NCBI GenBank assembly: GCA_016180965.1
Contig: JACPAF010000001.1
Coordinates: forward strand, 173,860 to 223,512
Direction: 5' to 3'
DNA length: 49,653 bases
Source of the DNA: Candidatus Aenigmatarchaeota archaeon
Lineage (GTDB): Archaea; Aenigmatarchaeota; Aenigmatarchaeia; JACPZZ01
The notes beneath the pieces are model-generated. The model searched no databases and was not told the origin of the DNA. It saw nothing but the letters and a program-made list of their open reading frames with translations. Of this stretch, positions 7,682-41,652 are shown in pieces (within the stretch, counting starts at the first letter, position 1; each line of letters starts with the position of its first letter). The position numbers and the translations under genes are program-made.

Positions 7682-8803
7682 CTATGCTGCATTACAGATT
7701 TTTTTTATCAGACCGTCGAATTTTGAGGCGCCGGACTCCCAATTGAACCTGACTACGTATTTCTTCCCGTTTTTCCCCATCCGGGCTGCAAGTTTTCTGT
7801 CTTTAAGGACTTTTACAATGGCCCCGCCTAACTCGGCGGGCGAATATGGATTAACCACAATCGCGGTTTTTTTATCCACAACAACGCCGGTTTCTTCGAA
7901 TATTTTCGTTGCAATTACCGGTTTGCCGAAATATCCGGCTTCGATACAGGGTATGCCGAAACCTTCTGAATGGTGGCTCGGAAGCACGAAAACATCGCAG
8001 GCTTTGTAGTACGGGGACGTGCTCTCAACTTCCCCGAAAAATTTTACGTTTTTGCCCAAACCGAGGTTTTTTATCAGTTTAAGCAGTTCGTTGTGGAACG
8101 GGCGTAAAAAGCCGGTGTTCGGCCCAACAATCCATAACTCACAGTTCGGAACCGATCTTTTTACGCGGACGATTGAGTTTACCAGGTCTTCCAGCCCCTT
8201 TTTCCTTATGTTTATCCCGACGAATAATATTATTTTTTTGCCCGCGGGTTTTTTTACAGGCACAGTTTTTTCATCTACAGCCAGGCCGCTCTCTATGACA
8301 GTGATCTTTTTACCGTCTATCCCGTGGAGGTTAACCACATCTTTTTTTACTTTGTTCGAATCGACTATTATGGCATCGGAAAATTCAAATATTGTTTTTT
8401 GAATTAATTTTCTAACTAACTTGTCGATCGGGCTGAGTTCCTTGATTTCGTTTTTTATTTGGTCTATATCATATATTATTGAAACTGCGGGCCTTTTGGT
8501 AATAAGTTTTACAATCACGGCTGCGGCACTGCCGACGAGCGCGTTTCCAACCACGGCGTCGCCTTTTAGCGAGATTGATTTTTTAACCGCCGCCGCCACA
8601 AAGTATGCAAATCTAAGCTGACGGGAGCCGACAAAATTAGGATAGGATATTCCGATGACGTCTTTTCTTGTCCTTTTTTCCATTTGTTGGGCTATTACTA
8701 CCCGTTCGTTTTTGGAACGCTTTTCCAATTCAGATATGTAAGTGGATACGCCTGCTATCTGAGGTTCGAATTCACGGCTGATTATCAGTACCCTGGGGCG
8801 CAT
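7682..8803 (-). CDS. GT4 family glycosyltransferase
   Basis: PRVLIISREFEPQIAGVSTYI...ILFVGINIRKKGLEDLV...CDVFVLPSHHSEGFGIPCIEAGYFGKPVIAT. Confidence 0.93.
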   Translation of the reverse strand: MRPRVLIISREFEPQIAGVSTYISELEKRSKNERVVIAQQMEKRTRKDVIGISYPNFVGSRQLRFAYFVAAAVKKSISLKGDAVVGNALVGSAAAVIVKLITKRPAVSIIYDIDQIKNEIKELSPIDKLVRKLIQKTIFEFSDAIIVDSNKVKKDVVNLHGIDGKKITVIESGLAVDEKTVPVKKPAGKKIILFVGINIRKKGLEDLVNSIVRVKRSVPNCELWIVGPNTGFLRPFHNELLKLIKNLGLGKNVKFFGEVESTSPYYKACDVFVLPSHHSEGFGIPCIEAGYFGKPVIATKIFEETGVVVDKKTAIVVNPYSPAELGGAIVKVLKDRKLAARMGKNGKKYVVRFNWESGASKFDGLIKKICNAA

Positions 8804-8874
8804 AAGATCTTTATCATCCCCGGTTCGTAAATATTAATGTTGCGCCAAACTAATTCGTTCATCGGGATGCCATC

Positions 8875-10371
8875 ATGGGAAGTTTAACGCGTATATTATC
8901 AAATACTTTTTATCTTAGCCTAGATTGGGTTGCACTGACACTGGGTGGCTACATTTATTGGATTCTGATGAGTAAGATGCTGTCCGTTGCGGACATAGGC
9001 CAGTTTTCAACCATTTCTAATACGGCTCTCTTCCTGGCAGGAATTTCCGGGCTGGGCATGAATGTGGCAGTAACGAAATTATTTCCCGAATACCAGATTA
9101 AAAATAAAACGGATTCGATTCCTCCGTCCATATCTTGGACGTTAAAGATAACTACTTTGGCCACAGTGTTAATCGGTGCAATTTTAATTTTGTTGTCACG
9201 CACGGTTTCCCACGAAATTTTCAGCCAGTATAACGTTTTGTTCATTGCGGCCATGGCAGTATTGACAAATTTTCTCTATATGACTTCCGGGTATTTGTTC
9301 GGGCTCCAGAAGATGAAAGAAATATTCAAATCCGACGTGATTTTGACACTTCTAAAAGTCGGTTTGACAGTACCGCTGATAATTTACGGGTTTGGTTATC
9401 TGGGTCCGGTCTACAGTTTCCTGGCCGCGGCAGCAATCGCAACGTTATTGAGATGGAAGTGGCTGCCCAGAGGGGGCGGGCAACCGGACAGGAAAAAATT
9501 GTGGTTTTATTCAATACCCGTCCTGGTCAGCAGTGCGGGCACGACTATGATCAATCAGGGAAGCGTCGTCCTGTTGAGCTTATTTTCCACCCCTATAAAC
9601 GTGGGAATTTTTTCCATACTATTCTATATAACATCTCCGGTCAGAATGATACCCCAGTTGATATCCAACGGTATGTTCCCGACCATGTCCCAAAAGTGGG
9701 CCGCTAATGACACGGACCAGATACAGAAAATAGTTTCCAAGGCTGTAAAATATTCAACGTTTATAGTGATTCCCCTGATAATATCACTTTCCATATTTTC
9801 CAAAGAAATTGTAATACTGCTCACGACGCCTGATTACCTTTCAATTTCCAACATGTTTTTCTTCATGTCATTGGCATACATGTTTTCCGGGATGTCTACA
9901 ATATTTACAAATATTTTGTATTCCTCAGGCGATGTGAAGTCGTTCAGAAATTCCAACCTAGTCGGAGGTTTCCTTAACTTGGTTATCGGAGCGATTGCCA
10001 TAGTGAAGTTTGGAGTGGCCGGGGCCGTAGCAGGATTCCTTTTGTCCAATTTTTCAATGCTCGTCTTCAGTTTTTATCTGATACGCAAGAAAGTAAAATT
10101 GCCGGTCAATAATTCCAACCTCTTTAAATTGGTGCTTTCATGCTCAATTTTTGTCATGGTTTCAAGAACGGCCGCCAACAATCCGGATCCGTTTGTTTGG
10201 GCGCCTTCAATTGTTTTGGCGTTTTTGATTTACGCATCGTCTCTTGTAGTTCTTGGATTTTTTGATAAATTGGACCTTAGGATAATCGAAGAGCTGGAGA
10301 AAAGATCCACAGGCCGCGGCAAAAATATTGTGGGTAAAATGGTTTCATTTCTGCAAAAATTCGCCAATTGA
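8875..10371 (+). CDS. Polysaccharide/lipid-linked oligosaccharide flippase (Wzx/MATE-like)
   Basis: 498 aa, roughly 12-14 TM helices, Wzx-type N-terminus. Confidence 0.85.
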   Translation: MGSLTRILSNTFYLSLDWVALTLGGYIYWILMSKMLSVADIGQFSTISNTALFLAGISGLGMNVAVTKLFPEYQIKNKTDSIPPSISWTLKITTLATVLIGAILILLSRTVSHEIFSQYNVLFIAAMAVLTNFLYMTSGYLFGLQKMKEIFKSDVILTLLKVGLTVPLIIYGFGYLGPVYSFLAAAAIATLLRWKWLPRGGGQPDRKKLWFYSIPVLVSSAGTTMINQGSVVLLSLFSTPINVGIFSILFYITSPVRMIPQLISNGMFPTMSQKWAANDTDQIQKIVSKAVKYSTFIVIPLIISLSIFSKEIVILLTTPDYLSISNMFFFMSLAYMFSGMSTIFTNILYSSGDVKSFRNSNLVGGFLNLVIGAIAIVKFGVAGAVAGFLLSNFSMLVFSFYLIRKKVKLPVNNSNLFKLVLSCSIFVMVSRTAANNPDPFVWAPSIVLAFLIYASSLVVLGFFDKLDLRIIEELEKRSTGRGKNIVGKMVSFLQKFAN

Positions 10372-30740: not shown

Positions 30741-31241
30741 ATGAAAACTCCCATATGCTCGATTTGCCTGCAGTCGAACATACTCTGCGCCAGCTGCAGG
30801 AGAAACATAGACGCGGGGAAGATAAGCGGCCGCGGAGTGGGGATAATAAAAAAGTTATACGAACTTTCCAAGTCGGTTAAATCTTTGGATAAAATTACCA
30901 TAAAAAAAGTTTTTGATTTTGACGGTTTGGTTGTCGTTGTATGCGATAAATCCGATGTTCCCAGCATAGTCGGCAAAGACGGCAGGATAGTAAACGATCT
31001 TCGCAAAAGCCTTGGAAAACAAATAAAAATCATAGGCGTTGACGAAATTAAAATTATGATAACTAATTTATTTTTCCCGGCAAAAGCGGTCAGGGTTGGG
31101 AATTTTTATTCTGCAGGGCTGGAAAGTTTAAAAATAAACTTAGATAAGAACCAGCTGAGGAATTTGCCGGCCAGCAAGGAAGAATTAATTAAAGCCGCGG
31201 AGGAAATATCCGGGATGAAAGTTCATATAAATGTTCAGTAG
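30741..31241 (+). CDS. Zinc-ribbon + KH-domain RNA-binding protein
   Basis: CSICLQSNILCASC (CxxCx7CxxC) and VPSIVGKDGRIVNDLRKSLGKQIKIIG (KH GxxG-like). Confidence 0.75.
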   Translation: MKTPICSICLQSNILCASCRRNIDAGKISGRGVGIIKKLYELSKSVKSLDKITIKKVFDFDGLVVVVCDKSDVPSIVGKDGRIVNDLRKSLGKQIKIIGVDEIKIMITNLFFPAKAVRVGNFYSAGLESLKINLDKNQLRNLPASKEELIKAAEEISGMKVHINVQ

Positions 31242-31660
31242 TTTTTCCTGTAGTGGCTTTCTAGTATATCCATTTTTTCGCTTAAAACTTTTAACTGCGC
31301 CTTAACAGTTTCTATTTCCGCGAGTATGAGGTCTATTTTCGGGCTCATCGGCTGGGTTTGGTTCGATGTCTGCTGTGCGAGGGAATATGATTGTTCAATC
31401 GGGTATTTCGAAGATATCGGAGATGGGGGCGGCCTGTAAATTTGTTCCGGCGGCAACTGCGGCTCGCGCAGAGCTTCTATCGGAGTTTTCGGCGGCATCT
31501 GAGACTCGTAGCGGGATTCGTAGGATTTTAATACGTCTTCGCTGGGAAGCCGTATTTGCTGTGCTGCAGCAGGTTCGATGCTTTGTTTTACTTCGCTTAG
31601 GTTGGATTTTTTGGGGGAAAATTTGCGCACCGCGCCGATCACACGGTCGAAGATACTCAT
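31235..31660 (-). CDS. Small Pro/Gln-rich linker plus C-terminal coiled-coil protein, unknown
   Basis: Pro/Gln-rich middle; C-terminal DLILAEIETVKAQLKVLSEKMDILESHY heptad pattern. Confidence 0.7.
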   Translation of the reverse strand: MSIFDRVIGAVRKFSPKKSNLSEVKQSIEPAAAQQIRLPSEDVLKSYESRYESQMPPKTPIEALREPQLPPEQIYRPPPSPISSKYPIEQSYSLAQQTSNQTQPMSPKIDLILAEIETVKAQLKVLSEKMDILESHYRKNY

Positions 31661-32151
31661 CTGCTCACCTTTTCCGGAAGGTTGAACGCTTTCCTCAGGT
31701 CGTTTAAGGTCATATTCATCCTTTCCTCGTTGCGCCTTAGCATTGCAATCCGGTGGGCCTTGTAGAAAAAATTCATGTAAATCGTGTGGGCTAGATGAAC
31801 GATGGGATTGCTGTATTCGAATTGGGTCTGGAGTTGGGCATATATTATCATACGTACTGTTCCTTGTTTTGTTTCCGCGTGTTGTTTTCCCTGGTAGCGC
31901 ACGTTAATGATAAGGTTTGTGAAACCGTCCTCTTCGCGCTTGAAGTCCAATTCGGTAAAAAATGTGCGTACAACGTCTGTAACGTCCCAGCGCACGTCTT
32001 TTTGCGTCCACCTGGTACCGCTTATTTCAAAGTATTGCCTGATCAATGAGTTGGCCTGGTTAACCATTTTCCACGGGTCTGCACCTGTGTATACCATGTC
32101 AATGTCCTTGTGCGGAGCGAAAAGGTCGTCGTAGATAAGCCATCTTCCCAT
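31657..32151 (-). CDS. Uncharacterised protein, tandem paralog A
   Basis: 164 aa; WD...F..D pattern and C-terminal NFFYKAHRIAMLRRNEERM shared with the neighbour; 4-nt overlap with 31660 gene. Confidence 0.8.
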   Translation of the reverse strand: MGRWLIYDDLFAPHKDIDMVYTGADPWKMVNQANSLIRQYFEISGTRWTQKDVRWDVTDVVRTFFTELDFKREEDGFTNLIINVRYQGKQHAETKQGTVRMIIYAQLQTQFEYSNPIVHLAHTIYMNFFYKAHRIAMLRRNEERMNMTLNDLRKAFNLPEKVSR

Positions 32152-32155
32152 TAAC

Positions 32156-32677
32156 TCACCCGGTGCGGAACTCTTCGAACGCTTTTTTTATCTCTATTTC
32201 CATGTTCCTGATAAGGGCGCGGCCTTCGTGCAGGTATTTCAGGCGCTGGGTTTTATAGAATATCGTGTGCCAGAACATCCTGATAATTTCATAAAATATG
32301 CTTCTTTGCCACAGCGTGTCCTGGGGGTATTCGGTCCTTAGAGTTCCGAATAAGCGGACTCGCGTGGCGCCTTCGCCTTTTGTGCTTTGGCCGGTTAGTT
32401 CGACGGACATACGGAAATAAGTAAACCTATCCAGTGGCTTTGAAATTTCCCAGAATACGTCAAATTTCTGCGTGTCGCCAACGTTGTCCCATTTGAATGT
32501 GCGTTCTTGTATCTGGCCGCGGTCGACACCATAGATTAATGGTATTATCTCGGATAACCTTGTGTAAAACCTTTCCGGTTTTGGCCCTCGATAATTGAGA
32601 ACTATGTAATATGGGTCGAACCTTATGAAAGGATCCTCAATTACAAGTTTTGTCCTCGCTATGACCATGTGGCTCAC
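32156..32677 (-). CDS. Uncharacterised protein, tandem paralog B
   Basis: 173 aa; FKWDNVGDTQKFDVFWEISKPLDRFTYFRMSVELTG...HTIFYKTQRLKYLHEGRALI, similar in layout to paralog A. Confidence 0.8.
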   Translation of the reverse strand: MSHMVIARTKLVIEDPFIRFDPYYIVLNYRGPKPERFYTRLSEIIPLIYGVDRGQIQERTFKWDNVGDTQKFDVFWEISKPLDRFTYFRMSVELTGQSTKGEGATRVRLFGTLRTEYPQDTLWQRSIFYEIIRMFWHTIFYKTQRLKYLHEGRALIRNMEIEIKKAFEEFRTG

Positions 32678-32710
32678 TTATTATTTAATGTTCCGCCTTA
32701 AAATGTAATT

Positions 32711-33607
32711 ATGTCCGATTACGAAGGCGAAGGGAATACAATCAAACTGTGGCTTTACTCTGTGGCTGCGGTTGTACTTCTCCTATTCTTGCTGGTAAAC
32801 GGGCCTAAAGGGATCTTGGATGCGTTTTCGACATTGACTATTTCGACAGGACTGTTTATTATATTTTTGCTGTTTTTCCGGGCCGACGGGAACGAAAATG
32901 TCGGGCTTGGGCTGGCCATTTCATCCGTACTAATCGTGGGCGGTTTTTTGGTAAGCTCCAGCACCGGATTCACGAGCATCGCGATGTTCCTTGCGGTTTT
33001 CAGTTCTGCGATTATATTCGTTTACGGCCTGGCTCCCAAAAACAATCCGGATAAACACGTAATTATGTTAACGATTGCCGCGGTTGTTATCATTTTTTTC
33101 GGCGGCGGTTCAATTCCGGTCGAGATGAGTTTAACCGTGACTGGAGTGTTATTGCTGATAATAACATTCGGCGTGATATTTTTCTTGTTTTCCAAATTTT
33201 CTGATGAGAAAAGCGGTATGAAGTGGGCTGTTTTCTTATCAACCTTAATGGTCGTTTTTGGGATTCTTTATCTTTTTGCGGGCTTTTTGCCCGGCTTCGC
33301 GTTCAGCGTCCTTGTTATTTTTGCTTTTGCGGCTTCAAAAATATTTCCAGAGTCCGGAACTGAAAGCGGTGTGGTTTCATGGGTCGGGACCGGTTCAGCG
33401 ATACTTGTCATATTTTTCCTGGCTTCGGCGCAAGGATTGTTCCCCGGCCTTCTAAGGGCGTTTTCATTGGTGATACTTGCGTCCGGAGTAATAACCATTT
33501 GGTTTTTCTTTCGAGTGGGTGAAAAGGAGATAGCGGGAATAACAAGCTCAGGCCTTTTGTTAGGAACGATTTTAACTCTGGTCGGACTATACTTAACGTT
33601 GTTTTGA
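32711..33607 (+). CDS. Polytopic membrane protein, unknown
   Basis: 298 aa, about 9-10 hydrophobic helices. Confidence 0.8.
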   Translation: MSDYEGEGNTIKLWLYSVAAVVLLLFLLVNGPKGILDAFSTLTISTGLFIIFLLFFRADGNENVGLGLAISSVLIVGGFLVSSSTGFTSIAMFLAVFSSAIIFVYGLAPKNNPDKHVIMLTIAAVVIIFFGGGSIPVEMSLTVTGVLLLIITFGVIFFLFSKFSDEKSGMKWAVFLSTLMVVFGILYLFAGFLPGFAFSVLVIFAFAASKIFPESGTESGVVSWVGTGSAILVIFFLASAQGLFPGLLRAFSLVILASGVITIWFFFRVGEKEIAGITSSGLLLGTILTLVGLYLTLF

Positions 33608-33616
33608 GGCGATTTG

Positions 33617-33802
33617 GTGGTTGAATTCACAGGCTTTGACATGGTTTTCCTGAAGATTCTTGGCACAATCCTTTTTGTGCTGGGTTTGTTTATGGGTGCT
33701 TTCTTTCCGGCCAGGGATTTTGAGACAAAATACAGGTTTATCGGGGTTTTAGTCCCGGGCACGATGATTATCATCGGTCTTTACCTTTGGACAGTACAGT
33801 GA
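33617..33802 (+). CDS. Small two-TM membrane protein
   Basis: VEFTGFDMVFLKILGTILFVLGLFMGAFFPARDFETKYRFIGVLVPGTMIIIGLYLW; GTG 33617 or TTG 33614 start. Confidence 0.6.
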   Translation: MVEFTGFDMVFLKILGTILFVLGLFMGAFFPARDFETKYRFIGVLVPGTMIIIGLYLWTVQ

Positions 33803-33805
33803 ACT

Positions 33806-33837
33806 GAATCATACCGATAGTGTATACGGTATGATTC
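33806..33837. repeat. 32-bp inverted-repeat element, copy 2
   Basis: GAATCATACC-gatagtgtatac-GGTATGATTC; related to 6991-7022 with a covarying stem pair. Confidence 0.85.
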
Positions 33838-33891
33838 TGATTGACCGGCAAACTTTTTTACCACCCTTTACATATAATATTTGGGTCGACT

Positions 33892-34056
33892 ATGGTCTTT
33901 GAACAAGTGGGCGGTCTTATGCTTATAGCGGCGGGCCTTTTTTTGGTTGTTTATTTCCCCGAAAGCGAGGATTCAGAGACCTCGGGTTTTACGATGGTAG
34001 GGATATTTGCCGGGCTGTTCCTATTGGTTATAGGTATAAAACTTTTGTTGGGATGA
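33892..34056 (+). CDS. Small two-TM membrane protein
   Basis: MVFEQVGGLMLIAAGLFLVVYFPESEDSETSGFTMVGIFAGLFLLVIGIKLLLG; TATA-like acatataatattt about 24 nt upstream. Confidence 0.6.
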   Translation: MVFEQVGGLMLIAAGLFLVVYFPESEDSETSGFTMVGIFAGLFLLVIGIKLLLG

Positions 34057-34060
34057 TCTT

Positions 34061-35950
34061 ATGGTAAATTTTGTAGCAAACAGGATGAATGGCGAATTTC
34101 TTTTCACTTACCCGCCGGACCAGAACGGAGCGCAGGAAAGTCACGTGGCAACTGAGAGGTTACCAGGTATATTGATAAACCCTACGGGCCCGTTAGGATT
34201 TATTTCGCTGTTGTACATCAAGACCATGCTGCAGCTGCCAAAATTTGGCTACGGGGTTTACAAACACACAGACAGTTTTGAGATCAATCCAACGTACCGT
34301 GAATATTATGCTGCGACTCTTGCGACTAAACAGGATTTGGAAGGCAAGATTAAAGCCGGATTGGAATCCGCGTCGCGCGCTATAAGCGATTATGAATTGT
34401 TGGCGCACGACCACAGGAAATATGAAACAAATCTAACATACTTAAACAATTTTGAAGTCGGGATGAAAGAGTTAGAAAAGGCCAAGAAGGAGAATAGCGA
34501 GGAAAAAAAGAAGGCCGCAGAGAGGAAGATATTGGAATCGAACACATCGTTGAAAGCTGTTTTTATCGATAGTGTTGACGTGCATACAGGCGAAGGCGTT
34601 GCTTTGAAATTAATTGTCAGCAGATGGCCTAACATAATCGTTGATTTTATGAAATTGAAGGACGAGATGAAAACTTCCGAGGATATAATTAAGGATTTCG
34701 TGCCGAAGATAAGCACGGCAGAGGCGGTTGTGCTGGCGACGAAAAATAAATTATTTATTGAATGGAAAAAACTTTTCAAGGATGCAGTAACGCAGCGTTA
34801 CTTAAACATATTGAGCTTGATGAATGCGAGGAAGAAAAGCATTGAACAGTACAAAAAGTGGCTGCGGCCTTATGTGATACAGCATGAATTGCTGAAAGAA
34901 TCACAGGAAACTCCCGGGTCCGGGGGAGGCATGATGACGCACCGTCTTCGCGCCGGGGCTCATGCAATGTCGTTCCACAGAATAGCGGCTTATGCATGGA
35001 AACCTTTCACGCCCGGTGATATATACCGCGCCACAGTTGAGAGGAAAGAGATCGAAGCTAATTTGAAATACCTTGGCCAGAAAAAAAAGGACGAAAACGA
35101 AAATAAAATCAATGAGGCGGAGGACAGGGTAATCTGCTCTAAATACGGAATTAGTTATGACCGCGACGGCATAAAAGACGGAAAATTCAAAACTAATTTC
35201 TGGTTGAATCCGTATGATGTTATTGCGAAAGTCGGGCTGTTTGGAAAGGACGAGGGTTCGACAAGCAATCGCATAAACGGTAAATGCCTGGCGGAAGAAT
35301 ATCCCTGGCTCAACAAAAAAGAAATAGAGGCCAAAGCACTTGGCATAATGAAAGAGTCCGCTGACCAGCAGAAGAATTTCTACAATACATTGCTGTTACA
35401 TCCGGATTATCTCTATTATATTTTGTGGGATTTGGATTTCCAGCGCGCAATAATAAGTATTCCACAAGGAACTGTAGATGACGGTTTCGTTTTCATAAAA
35501 ATAGCTTTCATAAGCCAGAACGTGCTTCTTGTAAAACTTGTTGAGCGCTGGGCTTCGGAACAGAGATTTGACAGGACCGTAGAAGAAGTTCTTGGGCTAA
35601 CCGCTATAGACGAGAAAGAAAATATTTCGGAGGGCATAACAGGCGACATGGAATCGGTTGCGAAAAGTAAATTTTCGGCTCTTTTTTCAAAAGAAACACC
35701 TCCAAAAAACGATGAAAAAAAGAGCGGTTTTAATTTAATCGAATCTTTAGAGCGTAAACTGAATGCACTAACCAACCTGTTTGAAATTTTCGGGATTGAG
35801 AATAGGGAATCTTTCCAATTTTTCAAGAAAGGGCCGTATGAAACAAATCTAAAAGACCGTATCACACGTCATTATTCCAAGGCATTCGCGGATACGTACA
35901 GAGACGAATTTATCAGCTGGTTTGAGGATGCTGCAAAAATAGGCGATTGA
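34061..35950 (+). CDS. Large uncharacterised, mostly helical protein (629 aa)
   Basis: Long uninterrupted ORF in a co-oriented gene run; no family recognised. Confidence 0.85.
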   Translation: MVNFVANRMNGEFLFTYPPDQNGAQESHVATERLPGILINPTGPLGFISLLYIKTMLQLPKFGYGVYKHTDSFEINPTYREYYAATLATKQDLEGKIKAGLESASRAISDYELLAHDHRKYETNLTYLNNFEVGMKELEKAKKENSEEKKKAAERKILESNTSLKAVFIDSVDVHTGEGVALKLIVSRWPNIIVDFMKLKDEMKTSEDIIKDFVPKISTAEAVVLATKNKLFIEWKKLFKDAVTQRYLNILSLMNARKKSIEQYKKWLRPYVIQHELLKESQETPGSGGGMMTHRLRAGAHAMSFHRIAAYAWKPFTPGDIYRATVERKEIEANLKYLGQKKKDENENKINEAEDRVICSKYGISYDRDGIKDGKFKTNFWLNPYDVIAKVGLFGKDEGSTSNRINGKCLAEEYPWLNKKEIEAKALGIMKESADQQKNFYNTLLLHPDYLYYILWDLDFQRAIISIPQGTVDDGFVFIKIAFISQNVLLVKLVERWASEQRFDRTVEEVLGLTAIDEKENISEGITGDMESVAKSKFSALFSKETPPKNDEKKSGFNLIESLERKLNALTNLFEIFGIENRESFQFFKKGPYETNLKDRITRHYSKAFADTYRDEFISWFEDAAKIGD

Positions 35951-35976
35951 TCCGGAAAAAATACGGAAGAGATTTT

Positions 35977-38028
35977 ATGGTTTATACAATAGGCGTGTCA
36001 AGCGGATGGTGGGGAATAGCGAAGACGCCCGACCTGCTCGGCTTGGGTTATAAAGCGATGTCCGCAGCGACGTACGGCGTGAATTTCGTACAGCTGGATA
36101 TAGAATCGCCGTCAGAATTTATGGAACCGCTTCTTGAACAGCAATTGACCATAGCGCGCGAAGATTTGGGATTAAATTACGGCATACACGGCGAATTTGA
36201 CTTGAAACTGGAACATGCGGTGAAAGATATCTACGACATTTATCATGAACGCCTTATCGACCACATCAGAGGCGCAGTACGTACGAAAAGTTCGTACATG
36301 CATTTTCACGCATCGTCGGAACCGCCACCCACAATAGGTTCGTCAATGTTAGGTTACCGTTTCCAGAGATTGGTCGCTCCAAACGGCAACACACTCTACG
36401 ATTTGCTCACATATTTTACTCCGGTCAAAGAAGGAAATAAAAATGTGTATAAAGTGTCCAGCAACCATTCGGAATATTCGCACCTTAAGCCTGACCAGAT
36501 CGCGGCCATACGCAGGATAATGCTTGAAAACTACATAGCCGGCGGCGGGCCGGAAGCTACGGACCCACGACATAGAGAGTTTCAGGACATGTCAAACGAT
36601 TATCAGGCCGGCATAGCAGGCATAGCAATAGGAGAGATCCGTGAAAACATAAGCAAAATGATGTGGAGAAAGATGAAAGACGACCTGCAGAAGAAATTGC
36701 GAGCGCACGGTCCGGTTGTCAAAGTTACAAGACGTGTCCGGAATAGTGAAGGCGAGATTGTCGAGGCTTTGATTGAAGAGAACACGGAAACTTTCATAAC
36801 GAGCGAGGAGGAAAGAATAAACCGAGGCTCTAGTAGTATAGACAATTATGTAACAACAATAATCAACAACCTCGGCATGAGCCTCGTTGAGCTGGATGAG
36901 TATTTCAAGGAAATGCGCAATATCGTGAGGGAAGAGCTTCACGACAAGTCGGAGGAATTCATCAAAGACGAAATGAAGAAAAAATACGTGCCGTTTTTCG
37001 GTTACGATGAGCGATTAGCTTATGAAATAGTTGGCAGATTAATGGAAGGGTCGCAGCAATGGAAGACGATATGCCACACAAATTACGTGCGCGCACAGTT
37101 AACGTCGCAGTTCAAGGCGGAGGATCCGAATAAAAAATTTTCTGACAGCGATATAACTGTTGATAACTTATTGAGAAGCCACGACCGCCGTGTGCAGGCG
37201 TTAGTCTCTACAGTAGTTGCGATGGAATACATTGACGGGCATTTTTCCAGAATAATGCAATACAGGGATCCGGACAAGGGGATGTTTACGGAGGAGAAAG
37301 ACAAAAATGGAAAAATAATAACGGTAAAGGAATACATCAAGAACCATAATTTTGTTGTGACTTTTGAGACACCGCAAATCGAACAAAAACAGGAAGGTTT
37401 GTTGCGTATCGTGCGTTCGGAACATATTTATTATCTGGTAAAAAAAATCCGCCAGTTTAACGGAGACCAGAACTTTTTGAAGGATTATGTTTTTATTTCG
37501 CTCGACTTTGAGCACATGCTGACCCACAATTTAAACATAGACTTGGAGCTTGATGAACTTCCGTCGGACGGGGGTGCGTTTTGCAAAGTTATCCATGTCG
37601 GCCAGCCGAAACCGATACATCCCGCACATGCGCCGATCTATGTCGGTTCGGAGGCGCAGGAATTGATATATAGGTATTTGTTCAAATTGCGCAAAAAAGG
37701 TTTTAAGGATGGCTGGATTGTTTTCGAGCGCGGTGGCGGCCAAAGCCCGCTGGAATGGATGCGTTCCAGCGTTTACGCGATGAGGCTGATTGTAGAATAT
37801 TTGGAGAAAGAATGGGATCCTGATAAATTACCCGTCGAATTTTACGGAGTTTCGCCAGAGTCTGAGTTTTCGGAACAAAGACAGATGGATGTAATACACA
37901 ACCATTTTTTCGCCCCGTTAGCCGGCACGCTGGCCATACCAGAGGAAGAGCACACGTTCCTTGGGCGCCTTGCGACAGAGAGGGCGGGATTGACACCTGA
38001 GAAATGGAAGAAAGAGGAATTGAGGTAG
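35977..38028 (+). CDS. Putative TIM-barrel metalloenzyme (xylose-isomerase/AP-endonuclease-2-like) with large helical insertion
   Basis: MVYTIGVSSGWWGIAKTPDLLGLGYKAMSAATYGVNFVQLDIESP, YGIHGEF, YMHFHASS ... VFISLDFEHM, VIHVGQ, WIVFERGGGQSP. Confidence 0.6.
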   Translation: MVYTIGVSSGWWGIAKTPDLLGLGYKAMSAATYGVNFVQLDIESPSEFMEPLLEQQLTIAREDLGLNYGIHGEFDLKLEHAVKDIYDIYHERLIDHIRGAVRTKSSYMHFHASSEPPPTIGSSMLGYRFQRLVAPNGNTLYDLLTYFTPVKEGNKNVYKVSSNHSEYSHLKPDQIAAIRRIMLENYIAGGGPEATDPRHREFQDMSNDYQAGIAGIAIGEIRENISKMMWRKMKDDLQKKLRAHGPVVKVTRRVRNSEGEIVEALIEENTETFITSEEERINRGSSSIDNYVTTIINNLGMSLVELDEYFKEMRNIVREELHDKSEEFIKDEMKKKYVPFFGYDERLAYEIVGRLMEGSQQWKTICHTNYVRAQLTSQFKAEDPNKKFSDSDITVDNLLRSHDRRVQALVSTVVAMEYIDGHFSRIMQYRDPDKGMFTEEKDKNGKIITVKEYIKNHNFVVTFETPQIEQKQEGLLRIVRSEHIYYLVKKIRQFNGDQNFLKDYVFISLDFEHMLTHNLNIDLELDELPSDGGAFCKVIHVGQPKPIHPAHAPIYVGSEAQELIYRYLFKLRKKGFKDGWIVFERGGGQSPLEWMRSSVYAMRLIVEYLEKEWDPDKLPVEFYGVSPESEFSEQRQMDVIHNHFFAPLAGTLAIPEEEHTFLGRLATERAGLTPEKWKKEELR

Positions 38029-38080
38029 AAGCTTATATTTCAGCGGCTCTTTCTTTAAACCGTAGGAGACAATTATTCGT

Positions 38081-38872
38081 ATGGAGACTGGAAAAGCCGG
38101 GGAGAAGGAATACGAGCCAAAGGCGCGCGTTTCCAAAGCAATGAAATTTGCGAAAATTATCAGAGACCAGTTTCCGGATTTCGTGAAAGGCATTTTACTT
38201 TTCGGTTCCGCGGCCAAAGGCGTGAAAAAGGCCGGAGACGTGGATGTTTTGGTAATACTCGACGACACCGACCCGAAGATATTTCCGGAACAAATTGACC
38301 GCGTTGACGAAAATGTCCGCTTGATAGCGGACAGGATAGGCGATTTGCATCCGCAGGTCCATACGATAACGGATTTCTGGGACTGGATCCGCCATGGGGA
38401 CCCTATACTTTTTAACTTCCTGCGTTACGGTTATCCGATTTACGACGCGGGTTTCCTTAAACCGACGCAGCGCCTTTTGGAAGCGGGCAGGATAACACCT
38501 TCGCAGGAGGCCATAAGATTATATTCCAAGATAGCGCCGAAAAATTTGGAAAAGGCTGAAAATTACATACGCGCCGCGATGATAAGGTATTACGATGCTA
38601 TGACCGCGTCGGCGCAGGCGGTTTCCATGTTAGCGTACAAACACCAGCCCGAACCGCGCGAAATTCCTTCGGTGTTGGAGCGCATGGTTAAAGAAAATAA
38701 GGTTGAGCAAAAATACGTGGATTATTATGTCCATGCGTTCCAGATGTGGAAAAAAATAGACCATAAAGAAATAAAAAACATACCCGGAGACATACTGGAT
38801 AAACAAAGGCGCGAGGCCGGCGAGTTCGTGGATACCATGAACAAATTCCTCAAGGGATATGCGGAGGAATAA
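38081..38872 (+). CDS. Nucleotidyltransferase (MNT-like) fused to a HEPN-like helical domain
   Basis: ILLFGSAAKGVKKAGDVDVLVILDD (GSx~10DxD) plus C-terminal helices. Confidence 0.75.
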   Translation: METGKAGEKEYEPKARVSKAMKFAKIIRDQFPDFVKGILLFGSAAKGVKKAGDVDVLVILDDTDPKIFPEQIDRVDENVRLIADRIGDLHPQVHTITDFWDWIRHGDPILFNFLRYGYPIYDAGFLKPTQRLLEAGRITPSQEAIRLYSKIAPKNLEKAENYIRAAMIRYYDAMTASAQAVSMLAYKHQPEPREIPSVLERMVKENKVEQKYVDYYVHAFQMWKKIDHKEIKNIPGDILDKQRREAGEFVDTMNKFLKGYAEE

Positions 38873-38873
38873 A

Positions 38874-40004
38874 GTGAAAATTAAAACCATACCGAAGAAG
38901 AAGTCGATAAAGGACATTGCACGCAAGCGCAGGGCGGACATGGTTAAAGTCCTTACGCAAAAAATACTGGACAAGTTCGGCAAATATGTGAAGTGCGTTG
39001 TTTTAGTCGGTTCCGTTGCGCGCGACGAATTTCGGAGCAATTCTGACATAGACATGTTTTTAGTAATTGATGATACTAAAGTGAATTTTACACCCGAAGA
39101 AAAACGGCGGATCGACGTGGAAATAGATATCGCAGCGCAGGAAATAAACAAAGATATTATCGTGCAGCCGGCGTACACGCTGACGGAATTTTGGGATATG
39201 GTTCGCACGTCGCATCCGTTGATATATAATTTTATCCGGGACGGCATACCCGTTTACGACACGGGATTTTTCATGCCTATTAAGCGATTACTTGAGCTTG
39301 GCCGCATACCGGCGACGAAAGAGGCGGCTGACGCGCTTTTGGACAAGGCGCCGAAAAGGTTACGCAGGATCAACGAAGTTAAATTGTATATGGTTGCGGA
39401 GGATTGTTATTATTCGATGCTGGACATGACGCAAGCTGTTTTAATGTCTCTTGGATTTGCGCCGCCTTCTCCCGGGCGCGCGGCCGAAGAATTCCGCAAA
39501 CACCTGGTCGATACGAAAATTATTGACGGCAAATACGCAGACTGGTTAGATGCAATTAACCAGTTCCGCAAGGACGTTGAACATAAAAAAATAAACGAGA
39601 TTAAAGGCGCGGATTTGGATGAATGGGTCAAGAAGGCCGACGAATTTGTCAATAAGATGCTGCAGATAGCCGATGCGTTGGAATTAAAGAAAAAGGAGAG
39701 GATAGTTGAAAAAAGCTACGATGTGATGACAAAGGCCATATCGGCTGCGTTAAAATCTGTAAATAAATTGCCCAACGATGCGGCTGAAATAACTAACGCA
39801 TTTAAAAAATATTTGATAGACGAAGGGCTGGTGGAAAGGCATTATGCGGACATTTTCGAACACCTCGGAGAGATGAGAAAGATGGTCCGCGACGGCAAGA
39901 TAAAGGAATTATCTGACAAGGAAATATATTCTAACCGGGAGTATGTCAGGAAATTTATCCATCATATAGGGAAAATAGTGAAGGACGAGGAGCCGGAGCA
40001 ATAA
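38874..40004 (+). CDS. Nucleotidyltransferase (MNT-like) with two HEPN-like helical modules; paralog of upstream gene
   Basis: CVVLVGSVARDEFRSNSDIDMFLVIDD; FWDMVRTSHPLIYNFIRDGIPVYDTGF vs upstream FWDWIRHGDPILFNFLRYGYPIYDAGF. GTG 38874 or ATG 38859 start. Confidence 0.75.
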   Translation: MKIKTIPKKKSIKDIARKRRADMVKVLTQKILDKFGKYVKCVVLVGSVARDEFRSNSDIDMFLVIDDTKVNFTPEEKRRIDVEIDIAAQEINKDIIVQPAYTLTEFWDMVRTSHPLIYNFIRDGIPVYDTGFFMPIKRLLELGRIPATKEAADALLDKAPKRLRRINEVKLYMVAEDCYYSMLDMTQAVLMSLGFAPPSPGRAAEEFRKHLVDTKIIDGKYADWLDAINQFRKDVEHKKINEIKGADLDEWVKKADEFVNKMLQIADALELKKKERIVEKSYDVMTKAISAALKSVNKLPNDAAEITNAFKKYLIDEGLVERHYADIFEHLGEMRKMVRDGKIKELSDKEIYSNREYVRKFIHHIGKIVKDEEPEQ

Positions 40005-40031: not shown

Positions 40032-41129
40032 ATGAAAATCACCAAAGAAGGGTTGGTAACATTATATCTTCCCGACAGCAGGAAAGAGGTTTTTTACAAC
40101 CCCGACATGGAGTTATCGAGGGACATATCAGTAGCTTTTTTACAGGCGTTGGGTTTGAAAAACCCGGCCGTTTGCGATCTGTTATCAGCAGCGGGAGCAC
40201 GCGCAGTGCGTTATGCCAAAGAAACTGATGCAGTAAAAGTCTTTGCGAACGATGCCAGTGAGGACGCGGTCGGTTATATCAAGAAGAATGTTTCGGCGAA
40301 TAAAGTTGATCGCAAGGTCACTGCGTCACGTTCGGGCGCGAATGCCTTCCTATCTTCGCATAAAAAACAATTCGACCTTATCGACATAGACCCGTTCGGG
40401 TCCCCGGTTTATTTTTTGGATGAACTCGCTAAATGTGCGCGCCCAGATTCTTATTTGGGCGTTACAGCCACGGATTGCGGCGCGCTTTCAGGCATTTTTC
40501 CAAAAACCTGTTCGGAAAGGTATGGCATTGCGCTAGAAAGAACCGAATGTTTCAAGGAAATAGGAGTGCGTAATTTAATCGGAGTCGTAGCTTCCAAGCT
40601 GGAGAAAGAAAAACTTTTTATAATTCCGTTGTTGTCTCATGCAACCGAGCATTACATACGTATATTCTTGAAAATTGTTTCGGACGGCAAAAATTTATCC
40701 GATTATTTTTATCACTGCAAGAAATGCAATTATTGCACATTCGAAAAGAAGGGCAGGTGCGTCCATGATATTGCGAAATTGGGCCCGATTTGGGCGGGCG
40801 GACTTCATGACAAGGTTTTGTGTTTTAAGATTCTGGATAAATTAAAACAGCCTTATTTTAAAAAGTCCGGGGATGCGAGGCGGATGCTTTTGAATATAAC
40901 GTCAGAATCGGAGGAGCCGTTTTATTATAACATACATAAAATATCCGAACGTCTTTCCAAAAACACCCCTCCGGTGGGCGATATTGTCAGACAATTGCGT
41001 AAATCCGGACTCAGTGCAACAAGGACGCAATTCAATGACACATCGATTAAGACGGATGCAATGCCAGAGGATATAGAAAAGGTTATCCGGATTTTAGATA
41101 AACCGCGATCGCAGAAGCCAGCAGAATAA
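40032..41129 (+). CDS. trm1: tRNA (guanine26-N2)-dimethyltransferase
   Basis: DIDPFGSPVYFLDELAKCARPDSYLGVTATDCGALSG; CKKCNYC zinc site. Confidence 0.93.
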   Translation: MKITKEGLVTLYLPDSRKEVFYNPDMELSRDISVAFLQALGLKNPAVCDLLSAAGARAVRYAKETDAVKVFANDASEDAVGYIKKNVSANKVDRKVTASRSGANAFLSSHKKQFDLIDIDPFGSPVYFLDELAKCARPDSYLGVTATDCGALSGIFPKTCSERYGIALERTECFKEIGVRNLIGVVASKLEKEKLFIIPLLSHATEHYIRIFLKIVSDGKNLSDYFYHCKKCNYCTFEKKGRCVHDIAKLGPIWAGGLHDKVLCFKILDKLKQPYFKKSGDARRMLLNITSESEEPFYYNIHKISERLSKNTPPVGDIVRQLRKSGLSATRTQFNDTSIKTDAMPEDIEKVIRILDKPRSQKPAE

Positions 41130-41652
41130 ACGACATCCAAAATGCGCCCATGTCCGGAACGTTTTGCGTGTTCACCACCGACCGTATGCCGAACGACATG
41201 TTGTCTTCGTCGTTGTTGATGTTTATCGCAGTTATGTTGAAATTAATTTCATTGCTGCGCACTATCAATCCTTTCACCGTTATTTCTGCGAGGGCGGATC
41301 CCGACGGGGGTACGAAAATCGTGGGAGACGCCGCCACAAGAGACAATTCGGGCGTGAAATTCGGATAATATGTTATTTTGTAAGTTTTTGCAATCGGCGC
41401 GTTGTTTATGATTTTTGCCTGTACTATTGTGTTCGCGTCCAGCGGGACTAAAACTAATGTGACCTTGTCCGAGTCTATGACGCATGAATTTGCACAAAAA
41501 TCTTCTACCTGCGGATAAAGGCCGCCGTTGAAAAGCCTTCCGAGCGTGCTGTTAAACCATCCGGATGCAAACCCTATCAGGGTTATTGCACCAAGAAGAA
41601 ACATTATAGTTGCGATGACGCTGGTGTCGCCTTTCCTGTAAGATTTGGACAT
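41083..41652 (-). CDS. Secreted/membrane protein, possibly pilin-like N-terminus
   Basis: MSKSYRKGDTSVIATIMFLLGAITLIGFASGW, beta-rich middle, C-terminal TM; overlaps trm1 3' end by 47 nt. Confidence 0.65.
   Translation of the reverse strand: MSKSYRKGDTSVIATIMFLLGAITLIGFASGWFNSTLGRLFNGGLYPQVEDFCANSCVIDSDKVTLVLVPLDANTIVQAKIINNAPIAKTYKITYYPNFTPELSLVAASPTIFVPPSGSALAEITVKGLIVRSNEINFNITAININNDEDNMSFGIRSVVNTQNVPDMGAFWMSFILLASAIAVYLKSG

Follow-up and report, generated by a model that had tools for sequence, protein, structure and literature searches.

Gene organization of the locus

The window, a 49,653-nucleotide stretch of DNA, comes from the genome of a member of the Aenigmatarchaeota (DPANN), and it holds ten adjacent open reading frames, called A to J here, all of which are present where a first-pass annotation had placed them (Table 1). 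The 4-nt overlap between A and B, the 4-nt gap between B and C, and the paralogy of B and C were likewise borne out, and hydrophobic segments agree with the description of D as polytopic and of E and F as proteins with two such segments each. Alignment with homologues moves several start codons: C probably begins at an internal ATG at position 32668 of an open reading frame that extends to 32677, E probably at 33641, F at 33892, and H, whose reading frame opens at TTG 35947 and whose homologues begin at residue 11, at 35977. With this probable start of C, the divergent gap separating C and D is about 42 bp rather than 33.

Table 1. Features of the divergent locus, in window coordinates
Feature	Coordinates	Strand	Description
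A	31235..31660	-	Amphipathic N-terminus, Pro-rich linker and C-terminal coiled coil; no recognisable domain
B	31657..32151	-	Paralogue of C; beta-alpha-beta4-alpha family
C	32156..32668	-	Paralogue of B; predicted beta-alpha-beta4-alpha (helix-grip-like), long C-terminal helix
Divergent intergenic region	32669..32710		AT-rich; putative shared promoter region, judged from sequence
D	32711..33607	+	Polytopic membrane protein, ~10 hydrophobic segments; outside conserved core
E	33641..33802	+	~53-aa two-TM protein; duplicate of F
F	33892..34056	+	~54-aa two-TM protein; recurs directly 5' of G
G	34061..35950	+	629 aa; long helical hairpins on small alpha/beta core
H	35977..38028	+	Endonuclease-IV-like TIM barrel; large insert between ligands H121 and E474
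I	38081..38872	+	Short NTase paralogue; RX4H arginine replaced by Trp
J	38859..40004	+	NTase (GS..SDxD intact) and HEPN-like helical domains, RX4H (R237-H242)

The conserved core consists of A-B-C, read leftward, diverging from F-G-H-(I)-J, read rightward. The ten-gene module of the first-pass annotation is real but slightly narrower than proposed: across the 40 loci of the phylum that were compared, D turned up in no genus but that of the window, and E is a second, locally duplicated copy of F (phmmer 8e-5).

Enzymes of the module

The product of H had been described as a TIM-barrel-like putative metalloenzyme, a view that profile, PDB and ligand matches bear out. It falls in the xylose-isomerase-like superfamily, its profile aligns colinearly with archaeal endonuclease IV (8e-11 and, for the second part, 4e-4), and endonuclease IV in the PDB is matched at about 1e-4 (1.4e-4); AP_endonuc_2 (PF01261) is above cut-off for sister-phylum H proteins, but not for the H of the window. 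Together with the barrel, the ligands H69, H109, E145, D179, H182, H216, H231 and E261 of endonuclease IV (Nfo) are common to H, which keeps eight of the nine zinc ligands (H81, H121, E474, D520, H523, H550, H561 and E594), five of them in 72/72 sequences and three more in 68-71 of 72. H differs from endonuclease IV in its large insert and in the ninth ligand, where the equivalent of D229 is not kept and varies among H, A, G and F. A separate, canonical AP_endonuc_2 protein is encoded in the same genome.

I and J are paralogues, and domain matches and motifs agree with their earlier description as nucleotidyltransferase/HEPN-like proteins. NTP_transf_2 matches J in 15/15 cases, a HEPN/HepT-like Pfam family in several only, and the nucleotidyltransferase site (GSX10DXD) is intact in 84/84 J sequences. 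The arginine of the RX4H motif is present in 79 of the 84 long Aenigmatarchaeota forms and in 8/14 long forms elsewhere, while I, the short forms and several phyla lack the motif, which rules out RNase activity as an ancestral function common to these proteins. What looked like a 1381-aa protein joining J to a large repeat protein proved to be an artefact of runs of N. The enzyme classes are very probably those assigned here, namely an endonuclease-IV-like barrel for H and a polymerase-beta-type nucleotidyltransferase with a HEPN-like tail for J.

J alone has probably been flagged before. The family cls.004259 / NEQ050 was described as "MNT fused to HEPN, typically in house-keeping context in DPANN", a single protein found in 36/67 DPANN genomes for which a toxin-antitoxin module was suggested (Makarova et al. 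2019, PMC6393860). Judging from that description, its domains, context and restriction to DPANN agree with J, but the paper gives no account of a gene module with G, H, B, C, A and F. A literature search found no description of the module as a whole.

Predicted folds of B, C and G

The paralogy of B and C is evident from profiles, the C profile recovering B at 1e-14 and the B profile recovering C at 5e-30. B has no match in Pfam or NCBIfam, and a sequence search of the PDB returned no relatives of either protein. The predicted structure of C (pLDDT 90.6) has a beta-alpha-beta4-alpha topology, which we take to resemble the helix-grip, START/SRPBCC or TBP-like fold. Foldseek matches to START/SRPBCC structures reach an E-value of 6e-4 but are weak (TM 0.2-0.3, all below 0.35), and C has no sequence match and carries an extra long C-terminal helix. 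For G, modelled with a pLDDT of 80, a PDB sequence search found no relative and Foldseek against the PDB and BFVD found nothing below E 0.02; its invariant residues are H116-D117, D170, D173, E221, K228 and R246, and it has no relative of known function. Profile comparison of G with B/C, made to look for a common core, gave insignificant best scores; the weak local matches between them do sit in collinear strands, a hint only.

Conservation and inheritance within Aenigmatarchaeota

H is present in 133 of 145 genomes of the phylum, and in 38 of the 39 good ones. Synteny was counted over 66 non-redundant loci of Aenigmatarchaeota: G lies 5' of H in 60/66, J lies 3' of H in 51/63, B/C are divergent and upstream in 42/55, and a small hydrophobic gene precedes G in 32/60. 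A gene with the architecture of A comes after B in most loci; its sequence drifts, and a profile search alone recovers only the window's genus. Even at one rearranged locus the module genes remain clustered. Among the recurrent neighbours are TFB, YchF, NusA, eIF5A, L35Ae, ABCE1, Trm1, S3Ae and histone, with YchF within five genes of B, on its far side and on the same strand, in 10/22 loci. In small genomes, translation genes are common neighbours.

Descent of the module is vertical, as the trees of H (19 changes against a minimum of 18) and G (17 against a minimum of 17) follow host families, where shuffles require about 30. All ten genes are under strong purifying selection, with dN/dS of 0.02-0.14 where computable (dS is saturated in many pairs). 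Selection on the module exceeds that on adjacent housekeeping genes, and identity within the genus is 70-95% for B, C, G, H, I and J, as compared to 54-63% for the flanking NusA and 59-62% for Trm1. Selection and conservation of this degree place the module far beyond chance. The first-pass annotation had held that co-occurrence of at least four of the families in unrelated genomes would support a system, and such co-occurrence is found, as A-B-C / F-G-H-(I)-J across families of the phylum and as subsets in four other phyla. The module is very probably a conserved functional unit. That it belongs to the near-universal, vertically transmitted core of these genomes, and is no accessory system, is a point absent from that annotation.

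Distribution among other archaeal phyla

Four other DPANN-type phyla have partial versions of the module (H-I-J, G-H-J, J-C-B and C-B-H-J), with a G-H-J cluster in a Nanohaloarchaeota-like phylum that has an acid proteome. J was detected in every genome of two phyla (60/60 and 10/10) and in nearly all of a third, and in 0/151 from three additional archaeal phyla. An independent tree of EF-2, which left out one genome represented by a wrong-frame ORF, groups the J carriers in a single clade (support 100/99). In two Nanoarchaeota-type genomes tested, G and H were not detected, whereas J and B/C-like genes were present; thus the full gene set is not obligatory.

Possible functions of the module

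The products of the module probably act as one complex. Our tentative preference, somewhat short of an even chance, is for an ancient, vertically inherited DPANN core module that most likely forms a single membrane-associated complex trimming or extending RNA (or DNA) ends; that RNA or another nucleic acid is the target is, taken by itself, a more doubtful proposition. In such a complex, J, as an active nucleotidyltransferase with HEPN-like domains, would form a tandem or hetero-oligomeric nucleotidyltransferase with its short partner I, and H would serve as a zinc-dependent phosphodiesterase of the endonuclease IV type. B and C, as a related pair on the beta-alpha-beta4-alpha fold, may build a scaffold with coiled-coil A and helical G, which the two-TM protein F (here also D/E) would tether to the membrane. 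The most likely job would be to cut or trim the ends of RNA (or DNA) and add nucleotidyl groups to them, in the processing or quality control of RNA close to the translation machinery. Weighing against this reading are the unconserved D229 position of H and the separate canonical AP_endonuc_2 protein, the patchy RX4H motif, the commonness of translation-gene neighbours in small genomes, and the failure to detect G and H in the two Nanoarchaeota-type genomes.

Other readings have to be weighed against this one. I and J might nucleotidylate (for instance, AMPylate) a protein or the HEPN domain itself, as MntA does to HepT, with H removing the NMP and the scaffold and membrane parts sensing the signal. 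KNTase, MntA and HalB-type enzymes are the closest nucleotidyltransferase relatives, the nucleotidyltransferase site is invariant while RX4H varies, and H is a phosphodiesterase-type barrel, all of which fit such signalling; the tyrosine modified by MntA, two residues beyond the RX4H histidine, is absent, however, position 244 of J being mostly E or K, and we regard this reading as unlikely. A toxin-antitoxin or anti-phage defence locus of the MNT-HEPN type is very improbable. J does share with type VII MntA/HepT a nucleotidyltransferase domain with an intact site, its HEPN-like part has the RX4H arginine in most long forms, and PADLOC matches I and J, as a nucleotidyltransferase domain only (PDC-S09, 6e-12). 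Against this, the PADLOC search gave no match for B, C, D, G or H, and a type VII system is a separate, mobile and patchy two-gene unit with an AMPylated tyrosine, whereas J is fused in one chain, lacks that residue, is paired with a short paralogue, and belongs to a near-universal, vertical and slowly evolving module.

Envelope or small-molecule metabolism, with H as a sugar isomerase-like enzyme and B/C as lipid-binding helix-grip proteins building or importing a surface or lipid component, would accommodate the transmembrane proteins, the weak START/SRPBCC resemblance of C and the superfamily of H. It is nevertheless rather improbable, given the low TM scores, neighbours that are translation rather than envelope genes, and the endonuclease-IV-specific histidine ligands of H. 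Extra histidines distinguish endonuclease IV from mononuclear sugar isomerases; because H keeps them, the sugar-phosphate variant of the membrane-associated modification system suggested in the first-pass annotation is less likely, while its nucleic-acid and nucleotide variants remain plausible. There may also be no complex at all, the genes being independent housekeeping genes held together by a conserved superoperon, as the compactness of DPANN genomes, the conservation of the neighbours and the separation of subsets in other phyla would allow; this too is improbable, for the subsets H-I-J, J-C-B and G-H-J are retained or reassembled across different phyla, and the one rearranged locus is still clustered.

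Evolutionary implications

Whether DPANN are monophyletic, where Nanohaloarchaeota belong and whether DPANN divide into Clusters 1 and 2 are matters of debate (PMC12329446). It is possible, at a little under even chances, that the module arose a single time, in the ancestor of the large DPANN "Cluster 2" clade, and that no phylum has lost it since, in which case it would represent both a new membrane-linked nucleotidyltransferase-phosphodiesterase complex and a shared derived character, independent of compositional bias, linking Nanohaloarchaeota with Aenigmatarchaeota and Nanoarchaeota. As a rare genomic character, G-H-J clustering is unaffected by amino-acid composition. Part of the module is probably present in the cultivated nanohaloarchaea. 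DPANN make up a large share of archaeal diversity, and a near-universal core complex in these obligate symbionts would be a prime target for biochemistry.

Gene set and selection

The stretch between 31235 and 40004 had been read in the first-pass annotation as an uncharacterised divergent ten-gene module, and all ten ORFs are indeed present there: A (coiled-coil), B and C leftward, and D to J rightward, including G (629 aa), the TIM-barrel metalloenzyme H and the nucleotidyltransferase (NTase) paralogues I and J. The genome is 731 kb and 81% complete, and homologue alignment moves the starts of four genes. Comparison with three other genomes of the genus shows purifying selection on every one of the ten genes (dN/dS 0.02-0.14 where it could be computed; many pairs have saturated dS). 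Identity stays at 70-95% for B, C, G, H, I and J as compared to 54-63% for the flanking NusA and Trm1. The homologue search found no D outside the window's genus. Matches to J, with one genome per species searched, are almost all from Candidatus Aenigmatarchaeota, the near-identical relatives being groundwater MAGs, which places the organism in this DPANN phylum.

Features within and outside the window (positions within the locus where one is named)
Feature	Position	Strand	Description
C, start	32668	-	from homologue alignment
E, start	33641	+	from homologue alignment
F, start	33892	+	from homologue alignment
H, start	35977	+	from homologue alignment
Pilin-like gene	41083-41652	-	secreted or pilin-like, 189 aa, N- and C-terminal hydrophobic segments; adjoins Trm1; relatives only in genus
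L203	1427-2245	-	same genome; canonical AP_endonuc_2/endonuclease-IV-like protein, 272 aa, distinct from H
L163 (G000:C2:226500-246499)	8239-8988	-	same genome, outside window; one member of a second I'-J' pair, the other being the adjacent 382-aa ORF
L147	3101-9900 (approx.)		rearranged yet clustered module, G-F diverging from C-B-H-x-J
L093	3116-9773		H and J separated by four PQQ/BamB-like beta-propeller paralogues and one sodium-solute-symporter-like protein (read from sequence)

Conserved order and descent

H is present by tblastn in 133 of the 145 genomes of the phylum and 38 of the 39 good ones, and the 20-kb regions around it share a recurrent order in which (coiled-coil A)-B-C and (small TM F)-G-H-(I)-J run divergently. 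In the non-redundant set of 66 H loci, G lies ahead of H in 60/66, B/C lie upstream in 42/55 (divergent in 42/42), a small hydrophobic gene stands ahead of G in 32/60 and I follows H in 22/63, while J follows H in 51/63, a figure biased upward because about half of the loci were fetched via J; the 40 fetched via H show the same pattern as the full set. The architecture of A is kept across loci although its sequence drifts. Trees of H and G require 19 (minimum 18) and 17 (minimum 17) changes of host-family label, against roughly 30 in shuffles, an almost perfect fit that shows vertical descent. Only family f4 departs from this: its H and G are placed differently in the respective trees, and its H was possibly replaced. 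In its loci L049, L050 and L059 (within L032-L071), H groups with f5/f13/f10 and G with f9.

Enzyme families and predicted folds

As a single query, H of the window had no match in Pfam. The H family profile matches endonuclease IV in the PDB (1.4e-4), and when it is compared, profile against profile, with archaeal endonuclease-IV-like proteins, one of them encoded elsewhere in the window's genome, the alignment falls into two collinear stretches (8e-11 and 4e-4) separated by a large insert; H proteins from sister phyla score above the cut-off of AP_endonuc_2, the Pfam family of endonuclease IV. The endonuclease IV ligands H69, H109, E145, D179, H182, H216, H231 and E261 correspond to H81, H121, E474, D520, H523, H550, H561 and E594 in H, whereas the D229 position is not kept. 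In Aenigmatarchaeota, five of these ligands are kept in 72/72 proteins and the remaining three in 68-71/72; other phyla keep nearly all of them.

Both I and J match NTP_transf_2, their closest PDB relatives being kanamycin nucleotidyltransferase, MntA and HalB. All long forms (84/84) have an intact NTase site, and 79/84 keep the arginine of an RX4H motif in their helical tail; the short partner I has Trp in its place, and HEPN or HepT-like models match some members. The Nanoarchaeota-type phylum has a longer J, which may be a fused I-J pair, because a second, weaker NTase match lies N-terminal of the main one. The I'-J' pair, whose short member no longer has an NTase active site, also occurs in the window's genus, G012 and G026.

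B and C are paralogues. C is predicted (pLDDT 90.6) to adopt a beta-alpha-beta4-alpha fold that ends in a long C-terminal helix, and START/SRPBCC-like and cytolysin-like solved structures are weak matches to it. The predicted structure of G (pLDDT 80) has a small alpha/beta core carrying helical hairpins, and structure searches found no relative of it; its invariant residues H116, D117, D170, D173, E221, K228 and R246 could form a site. Profile comparison did not demonstrate a common core of G with B/C.

Breadth across archaea

With one or two genomes sampled per phylum, and coverage of archaeal phyla inferred from family labels, strong J is restricted to a subset of phyla. It is present in 60/60 good genomes of one phylum, whose many families point to Nanoarchaeota, and in 10/10 of another. 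Family f44 has C-B-H-J with F; f49 has clustered G-H-J, with a C-C pair elsewhere in the genome, and is probably Nanohaloarchaeota because its genomes are about 1.0 Mb with a median pI of 4.7. The phylum of G173 has H-I-J, and in that of G192 J adjoins B/C-like genes. At E 1e-20, J was found in 0/50, 0/51 and 0/50 genomes of three other phyla, in one of which most genomes measure 0.6-1.2 Mb. An EF-2 tree built from 29 genomes places 11/11 J carriers in one clade (support 100/99, 100% of bootstrap trees), and the simplest reading is that J arose once, in this DPANN clade, which appears to correspond to the DPANN Cluster 2 of PMC12329446.

Proposed role and relation to published work

Recurrent neighbours, named from sequence, are TFB, YchF, NusA, eIF5A, L35Ae, Trm1, ABCE1, S3Ae and histone, and in 10/22 loci YchF lies on the strand of the A-B-C operon, a short distance past it. 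For the module, the order of its genes, its breadth, vertical descent, selection and enzyme families are established. The preferred reading of its nucleotidyltransferase, barrel of phosphodiesterase type, HEPN-like domains and TM/coiled-coil partners is a putative complex, probably tethered to the membrane, that would carry out end-processing or quality control of nucleic acid, most likely RNA.

J is very probably the family of DPANN cluster cls.004259 (NEQ050; 36/67 genomes) of Makarova et al. 2019 (PMC6393860), annotated as 'MNT fused to HEPN ... typically in house-keeping context in DPANN' and proposed as a toxin-antitoxin module whose unusual conservation was remarked. A literature search found no description of a module that combines H, G, B, C, A and F; any novelty concerns the module as a system and not J by itself. 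Castelle et al. 2021 (PMC8204110) reported no set of DPANN-specific families, and the present pattern would be a candidate set of specific families for part of DPANN.
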